In this document: positions 12,911 through 13,296 of the stretch, one piece after another
How the letters are laid out: every line of letters begins with the position of its first letter
Numbering within the stretch: the stretch's first letter is position 1
Assembly: GCF_000485595.1 (NCBI RefSeq)
Contig: NW_014578893.1
Location: 29,806 to 51,738, forward strand
DNA: 21,933 nt
Source of the DNA: Priapulus caudatus
Taxonomy: Eukaryota; Priapulida; Priapulimorpha; Priapulimorphida; Priapulidae
Reading direction: 5' to 3'
Notes under the pieces: model-generated
Told to the model about the DNA's origin: nothing
The model's database searches: none
What the model saw: only the letters and a program-made list of their open reading frames with translations
Translations under genes and position numbers: made by a program

Positions 12911-12995
12911 CTGAGGATGTGAAACAGGCGCGCCATTTTACCTACTGCGCGGATTTTATTCCGGATAATGCGCTTACGCTCCTCGGCCGGGTCAC
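12911..12995 (-). CDS. CanA: Calcineurin A exon B: calmodulin-binding helix, variant B (one of two alternative exons)
   Basis: This is an internal exon of the catalytic subunit of the Ca2+/calmodulin-dependent Ser/Thr phosphatase calcineurin. It is bounded by acceptor ttgtttccag|GTGACC, with ctgat as a plausible branch point, and donor CCTCAG|GTAAGG. Its 85 nt enter after codon base 1 and leave after base 2. The reading is DPAEERKRI, then IRNKIRAVGKMARLFHIL, then a split Arg codon. The core (12963-12928) corresponds to the calmodulin-binding segment [12 protein letters not shown] of known calcineurins. With a preceding G, the length before the core equals the vertebrate one, so B looks canonical in size. 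Where vertebrates have F-S-V-L, B has F-H-I-L, so the phosphorylatable serine is absent. It lies 210 bp downstream of exon A. The symbol is by family, since the species is unknown. Confidence 0.88.
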
Positions 12996-13042
12996 CTGGA
13001 AACAACCGACCAATCAGTGAACAGCAGACGACGGACTGGTTG

Positions 13043-13060
13043 CCGCGGCGACCGCCGCGG
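13043..13060. repeat. GC hairpin in the intron between exons A and B
   Basis: CCGCGGCG (13043-13050) and CGCCGCGG (13053-13060) are exact reverse complements with a 2-nt spacer. In the pre-mRNA this hairpin would sit 48-65 nt before the exon B acceptor, close to the expected branch-point region. Confidence 0.6.
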
Positions 13061-13080
13061 CGAGGGACGGCGGGAGGCGG

Positions 13081-13195
13081 TGTAGGGGGCGCCGGTGACG
13101 GCGAGGGGTGCGCGGCGCCACCTACCTTCGCCCGTCGGCGGCAGGACGGGCGGCTATCTGAAACGAAACATGCGCGTGGCGCCGCCACCTGGCAC
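13081..13195. promoter_or_regulatory. CTCF-like or RNA-pairing motifs in the A-B intron
   Basis: tagggggcgccggtg (13083-13097), ggcgccacctacc (13114-13126) and gtggcgccgccacctgg (13176-13192) fit the CTCF core partly. GGCGCCACCT at 13114-13123 is also an exact 10-bp complement of 13448-13457, upstream of exon A, and CGCCACCTG at 13183-13191 complements 13447-13455 over 9 bp. The motifs could therefore act in DNA or as competing RNA pairings. Confidence 0.35.
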
Positions 13196-13205
13196 CCTTA
13201 CTTAC

Positions 13206-13296
13206 CTTAACACAGTAAACATACGCGCCATTTTGCCAACGGCTCTGATTTTGTTCCGCATAATTTCCCTCCGCTGTGCCTTTAGTTCGCGATCTG
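13206..13296 (-). CDS. CanA: Calcineurin A exon A: calmodulin-binding helix, variant A (one of two alternative exons)
   Basis: The first of the two alternative exons in transcript order. Acceptor cttgtttccag|CAGATC and donor GTTAAG|GTAAGTA are both strong. The 91 nt use the same phases as exon B (in after codon base 1, out after base 2). The reading is DRELKAQRREI, then MRNKIRAVGKMARMFTVL, then a split Arg codon. The 12-residue core (13258-13223) is identical in protein to exon B. Six of its 12 codons nevertheless differ from B, all synonymously, which indicates selection on the protein after duplication. A has two extra residues before the core. It keeps R-M-F-T, an R-x-x-S/T site at the position of the vertebrate phosphoserine. 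The paired lengths (91 and 85, both 1 modulo 3) mean that only one of A or B can be used without a frameshift. Confidence 0.9.

Follow-up and report, generated by a model that had tools for sequence, protein, structure and literature searches.

PMC12503234 describes alternative splicing of mammalian calcineurin A in linkers 1 and 2, on either side of the calmodulin-binding domain (CBD), and in C. elegans tax-6 the mutually exclusive exons 13a and 13bc, which encode linker 2 and are used mainly in neurons and muscle respectively. An original prediction for the locus described here had placed the known vertebrate splicing of this family in the C-terminal region and has to be corrected on that point. 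The worm gene resembles the case put forward below in that a calcineurin A has two homologous, mutually exclusive exons in its regulatory region, with tissue-specific use in the worm (PMC12503234), but the worm exons encode the linker that follows the CBD and both keep residue S443, whereas here the CBD exon is duplicated and the residue at position 411 differs. Exons 10 and 13 of mammalian PPP3CA/B/C are likewise alternatively spliced next to the CBD, but as described in that source they are included or skipped within linkers 1 and 2 and offer no choice between two CBDs (PMC12503234). Tandem duplicated exon substitutions, an established and mostly ancient class, provide a further parallel: adjacent homologous exons are used one per transcript and the resulting proteins are the same but for one homologous segment (PMC9741552, PMC9013439). 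The main text of PMC9741552 contains neither ‘PPP3’ nor ‘phosphatase’, and that of PMC9013439 does not contain ‘calcineurin’. Finally, Ser-411 of calcineurin A, a residue of the CBD, is reported in a review to be phosphorylated by CaMKII with inhibition of the phosphatase, the in-vivo relevance of which needed proof at the time (PMC3950490); a second review, PMC7991079, reports the same site, and there mice without two CaMKII genes have hypo-phosphorylated and more active calcineurin. This control concerns the CBD residue that aligns with the position differing within each of our exon pairs, but it is set by kinase activity, and removal of the site by splicing is not mentioned in the text of either paper available to us (PMC3950490, PMC7991079). 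A published mutually exclusive CBD exon in calcineurin was not found in searches of openly licensed papers, in line with the original prediction, which knew of no described case.

The DNA analysed here is a stretch of 21,933 nucleotides from Priapulus caudatus (the window), in which two exons lie 210 bp apart on the minus strand. Exon A (13206..13296, 91 nt) reads (G)+CA, DRELKAQRREIMRNKIRAVGKMARMFTVL, AG+(R), and exon B (12911..12995, 85 nt) reads (G)+GT, DPAEERKRIIRNKIRAVGKMARLFHIL, AG+(R), as judged from the sequence and the CBD peptides in the PDB; the intron between them (12996..13205, minus strand) has 210 nt. The first two bases of each exon complete a codon and its closing AG starts the next, and the codons split at both ends therefore need one base from the preceding and one from the following exon. 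The splice sites are GT-AG, of good quality and in equal phase for both exons. Both acceptors end in TGTTTCCAG, that of exon B with its AG at 12996..12997 and that of exon A with a second AG three bases further on, forming a NAGNAG acceptor (13294..13298) with AG at 13298-13297 and 13295-13294. Exon A may thus start at 13296 or 13293, which gives it a length of 91 or 88 nt; each of these is 1 modulo 3, so that the phase is kept with either. The donors are GTAAGT for exon A (13200..13205; AG/GTAAGT) and GTAAGG for exon B (12905..12910; AG/GTAAGG), all of these sites being on the minus strand. Scored against a simple donor matrix, 3 of the 1232 minus-strand GT sites in the window reach at least the score of donor A and 4 at least that of donor B, each count including the donor itself. 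The spacing, lengths, common phase and intact splice sites of the original prediction were all recovered when coordinates and lengths were derived again, as was the exact 12-residue core, RNKIRAVGKMAR, encoded by both exons with no amino-acid change.

That this segment is the calmodulin-binding helix of calcineurin A, as had been proposed, is borne out by the match of both peptides to solved calcineurin CBD peptides in the PDB (2jzi/4q5u and 2r28), with best E values of 1.3e-7 for exon A and 2.6e-7 for exon B. The CBD exon pair is far beyond chance, and the observation holds. Within the core, 6 of the 12 codons differ between A and B (7 bases) and all six differences are synonymous; of the 27 codons aligned between the exons, 8 are the same in both, another 8 show synonymous differences and the remaining 11 encode different amino acids. 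Likeness at the DNA level extends over 75 nt (72% identity) through the donor sites and over a further 17 nt (82%) at the acceptors, which fits an exon duplicated along with its splice sites, and exons A and B are diverged tandem duplicates.

Several features of the surrounding DNA were also recorded. The density of GGCGCC in window positions 12000-13500 is 4.67 per kb, against 0.20 in 1-5000 and 0.40 in 5001-10000, and several of these sites, close to both exons, resemble TGGCGCC(A/C)CCTA. Upstream of exon A, at a distance of some hundreds of bases, lies an array of about 28 copies of a 13-bp A+T-rich unit (13572-13937), an array of about 80 copies of a 43-bp unit with 76% matches occupies 15033-18637, and GA-rich and CCTTCC/CGCCGCC-rich repeats continue from there to the contig end. 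On the minus strand at 9699-9712 and 9811-9824 stand CCAGTAGAGGGCGC and CCAGGGGGCGCTAG, which resemble the CTCF binding motif. Rfam and tRNA scans of the window gave 0 matches.

A search of the animal's own assembly (385 Mb, 2952 contigs) with the calcineurin P0175 returned 29 matches, 12 of them on the plus strand of a single contig, C35, in gene order, and 2 of these 12 are CBD exons. The resulting gene model has 12 exons from 339220 to 356142 with GT-AG at every internal border; its 5' end is open, the first coding exon or exons not having been found, and the gene is nearly complete. Its two CBD exons, c35A (353390-353474) and c35B (353637-353721), each have 85 nt, lie 162 bp apart on the plus strand and encode 29 residues each, of which the first and last are common with the neighbouring exons, namely the linker-1 exon upstream (346897-346974, plus strand) and the linker-2 exon downstream (355339-355436, plus strand). 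The product aligns with the calcineurin A chains 4orb (residues 86-484) and 1aui (86-504) and is, among the fetched proteins, 87% identical to P0175 and about 84% identical to sea-urchin and sea-cucumber calcineurins, and c35A, like the window exons, matches CBD peptides and chains of calcineurin in the PDB. The paired-CBD arrangement thus recurs in a calcineurin A gene that is ordinary in other respects and has the neighbouring exons one would expect, and this is the main new support for the pair in the window. A branch-point-like TAACTACC stands ahead of both C35 CBD exons (5373-5389 and 5618-5632 of the C35 stretch L042), the second lying inside TACTAACTACC, as if the duplicate had carried part of the upstream intron with it.

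Adjacent homologous exons with their own acceptor and donor and the same phase, the features that define tandem duplicated exons, are found both in the window and on C35. Across the four exons, the six pairwise comparisons of 18 core codons give DNA identities of 32-38 of 54 and amino-acid identities of 12-14 of 18. Nonsynonymous distances by two methods are 0.14-0.30 in the six pairs, and the synonymous estimate for window A against B is 1.8 or 4.3, with larger or undefined values for the other pairs. The four CBD exons are old and have been retained for the protein they encode. Orthology between the loci, of A with A and B with B, was considered and dropped, the 32-38 of 54 showing no clear pattern across the six pairs. 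The same comparisons bear on the idea that only one exon of a pair is in constitutive use, its duplicate being unused or in decay. Duplicates are often lost, and this speaks for it, but neither pair has a damaged reading frame or splice site, every one of the six altered core codons of window A and B is synonymous, the nonsynonymous distance is low in all six pairs and the arrangement is present at two loci, and we consider this account very doubtful.

The original prediction had placed the window exons in a calcineurin A gene, a statement that now rests on the C35 gene, as no other calcineurin exon was found inside the window by a motif scan or by tblastn with P0175 and P0003. The locus of the window pair is not that of the catalytic calcineurin exons recovered from the assembly, and it is possible that it belongs to a second calcineurin gene, is an orphan exon pair or comes from another organism in the assembly. 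An origin of exons A and B from separate gene copies is very unlikely, as both are on the same strand, in the same phase and 210 bp apart. That the pair lies outside any working calcineurin gene of this animal, as an orphan copy or on a contig of another organism, is a serious possibility, to which we nevertheless give somewhat less than an even chance. It would account for the empty surroundings, for the confinement to C35 of every catalytic-region match above 63% identity in the search of the animal's own assembly, and for the unlike composition of the two loci (window positions 1-14 kb, GC 0.50 and CpG observed/expected 1.20; C35, GC 0.38-0.41 and CpG 0.64-0.73). Other loci of the assembly, however, cover the same range of composition as the window and C35, and the contig ends where the window ends, some 8.6 kb upstream of exon A, with some stretches of the assembly reading N, so that exons may be missing and their absence is weak evidence. 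An orphan copy also sits poorly with the conservation of both reading frames, and a mixture of organisms would change only the owner of the pair, leaving its mutually exclusive reading untouched. The proposal that the window is a haplotype copy of C35 was rejected, as the peptides differ and blastn of 20 kb of C35 against the readable sequence of the window contig gave no match at E 1e-3. Separately, contig C873 (stretch L002) carries an open frame of 299 residues that matches a metallophosphatase and has no stop; it might be bacterial and might hint at other organisms in the assembly.

The consequences of combining the exons were read from the C35 gene model and, for the window, by joining its exons in silico to the C35 linker exons as stand-in flanks. 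With c35A only or c35B only, the C35 frame stays open for 413 residues and ends at one common stop; inclusion of both CBD exons shifts it to a stop at 361, before the autoinhibitory region, and with neither it stops at 344. Window A only or B only likewise reads through between the C35 linkers, the frame is broken with neither, and the two joined meet a stop directly after ...MFTVLR, as they do on retention of the intron between them. The original claim that including both exons or skipping both breaks the frame thus holds at both loci. A full protein results from single inclusion only, and the frame alone therefore penalises the other combinations. Each splice form would supply one complete CBD, and joining of A to B or skipping of both shifts the frame and would be expected to lead to decay of the mRNA or to a protein lacking the autoinhibitory domain. 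The further claim, that the gene chooses between two calmodulin-binding modules, stands as regards the two in-phase modules, their recurrence in the same architecture on C35 and the preservation of the frame by single inclusion alone; as regards exclusive use in the mRNA, each mRNA probably carries one exon or the other.

The same stops could be put to use, with regulated inclusion of both exons acting as a poison or truncation switch that yields mRNA decay or a calcineurin without its autoinhibitory domain. The immediate stop at the window joint and the C35 stop 361 residues in, ahead of the autoinhibitory region, would both suit such a device, but the stop at the joint follows solely from the phases and the first bases of exon B, and the C35 pair stops after a shifted stretch instead of at the joint, the exact stop not being common to the two loci; we regard this reading as improbable. 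As a means of enforcing single inclusion, competing RNA stems were examined and rejected: the inverted-repeat pairs I6 and I1 seemed able to loop out A or B, but duplex energies at both loci were no better than those of shuffled introns: in each of six comparisons at the two loci, between 31 and 100 of 100 dinucleotide shuffles did as well as the best duplex pairing introns across one exon or the other.

Within each pair the exons differ at the residue that aligns with Ser411 (numbered by chain 1aui), which is Thr in window A (R-M-F-T), His in window B (R-L-F-H), Asn in c35A and Ser in c35B. R-x-x-S/T at this position is accordingly present in window A and c35B and absent from window B and c35A, the acceptor exon coming first in the window and second on C35. 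Among 175 fetched calcineurins (cluster representatives at 90% identity from three protein searches, which, the query flanks being human, come mainly from vertebrates and echinoderms by the names shown), position 411 is Ser in 161, Thr in 11 and Ala in 3, and in none is it His or Asn. Relatives of exon B were sought among five candidate proteins, likewise from cluster representatives and human query flanks, of which two matched, neither with LFHILR, and two further protein searches listed the best 120 of 381 and the best 120 of 745 matches; no relative of exon B was found, although related isoforms may be hidden by the use of cluster representatives and human query flanks. Two of the fetched calcineurins, P0121 and P0122, have the CBD RREIIRNKIRAVGKMARLFAVLR, with the Val core of the window exons and Ala at 411, and are 66-68% identical to the C35 protein. 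In the Strongylocentrotus isoforms X4, X6, X7 and X5 (P0001, P0002, P0008 and P0009), a comparison by eye found differences confined to linker 1, immediately ahead of the CBD, and linker-1 splicing of the mammalian type may extend to echinoderms. The worm residue S443 was considered as the switching residue and set aside because it is located in linker 2, just after the CBD and not within it (PMC12503234, PMC12043318).

On the reading that we prefer, the point of the exon choice would be the Ser411-aligned residue, one exon keeping Ser or Thr in R-x-x-S/T and the other carrying His or Asn, so that splicing would determine if calcineurin is open to restraint by kinases of the CaMKII type, whilst calmodulin binding would largely be kept. 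Taken as a whole, the explanation that these are alternative CBD exons, included singly, that provide a choice between a CaMKII-restrainable and a CaMKII-resistant calcineurin is probably the best one, whilst the phospho-switch meaning of the choice, which is drawn from aligned residues, is advanced tentatively, at not quite even chances. That splicing hard-wires CaMKII restraint of calcineurin at two loci, with the acceptor exon in opposite order, and that such a switch has more than once arisen or been retained, may be the case, but we would sooner bet against it. Exons A and B differ across positions 409-412 in any event (at residues 409, 411 and 412), and the two non-acceptor residues at 411 could be drift; the Ala at 411 in 3 of the 175 calcineurins, with no known pairing, indicates that loss of the acceptor is tolerated.

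The differences at 409, 411 and 412 would also suit the function originally proposed, in which the two helices bind Ca2+/calmodulin with different affinity and the Ca2+ threshold of the phosphatase depends on splicing. The alternative segment is, after all, the CBD itself, and on C35 the two peptides do diverge, c35B having an R-to-L change within the core and a hydrophobic moment of 0.32 against 0.46-0.49, and c35A having Tyr in place of a conserved Phe. Against such tuning, window A and B share exactly the same 12-residue core with near-equal charge and moment, and by the same crude calculation window A, window B and c35A, three of the four peptides, come close to the 2jzi CBD peptide in net charge and hydrophobic moment. 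The proposal is thereby weakened, with c35B as the exception that still favours it and the residue at 411 as the sharper difference; we judge tuning somewhat unlikely overall, but a genuine competitor, above all where the C35 pair is concerned.

The finding, then, is of conserved alternative calmodulin-binding exons in calcineurin A at two loci, distinguished by their location in the CBD and by the presence of one acceptor and one non-acceptor exon in each pair. The calmodulin-binding helix, usually taken as one fixed module, becomes an alternative one. Both calcineurin and CaMKII respond to one Ca2+/calmodulin signal, and they can act in opposition; if the proposed switch is true, the balance between kinase and phosphatase would be partly fixed in the gene for each cell type and not by signalling alone, and each isoform pair would offer a natural comparison of calcineurin with and without an acceptor at position 411.
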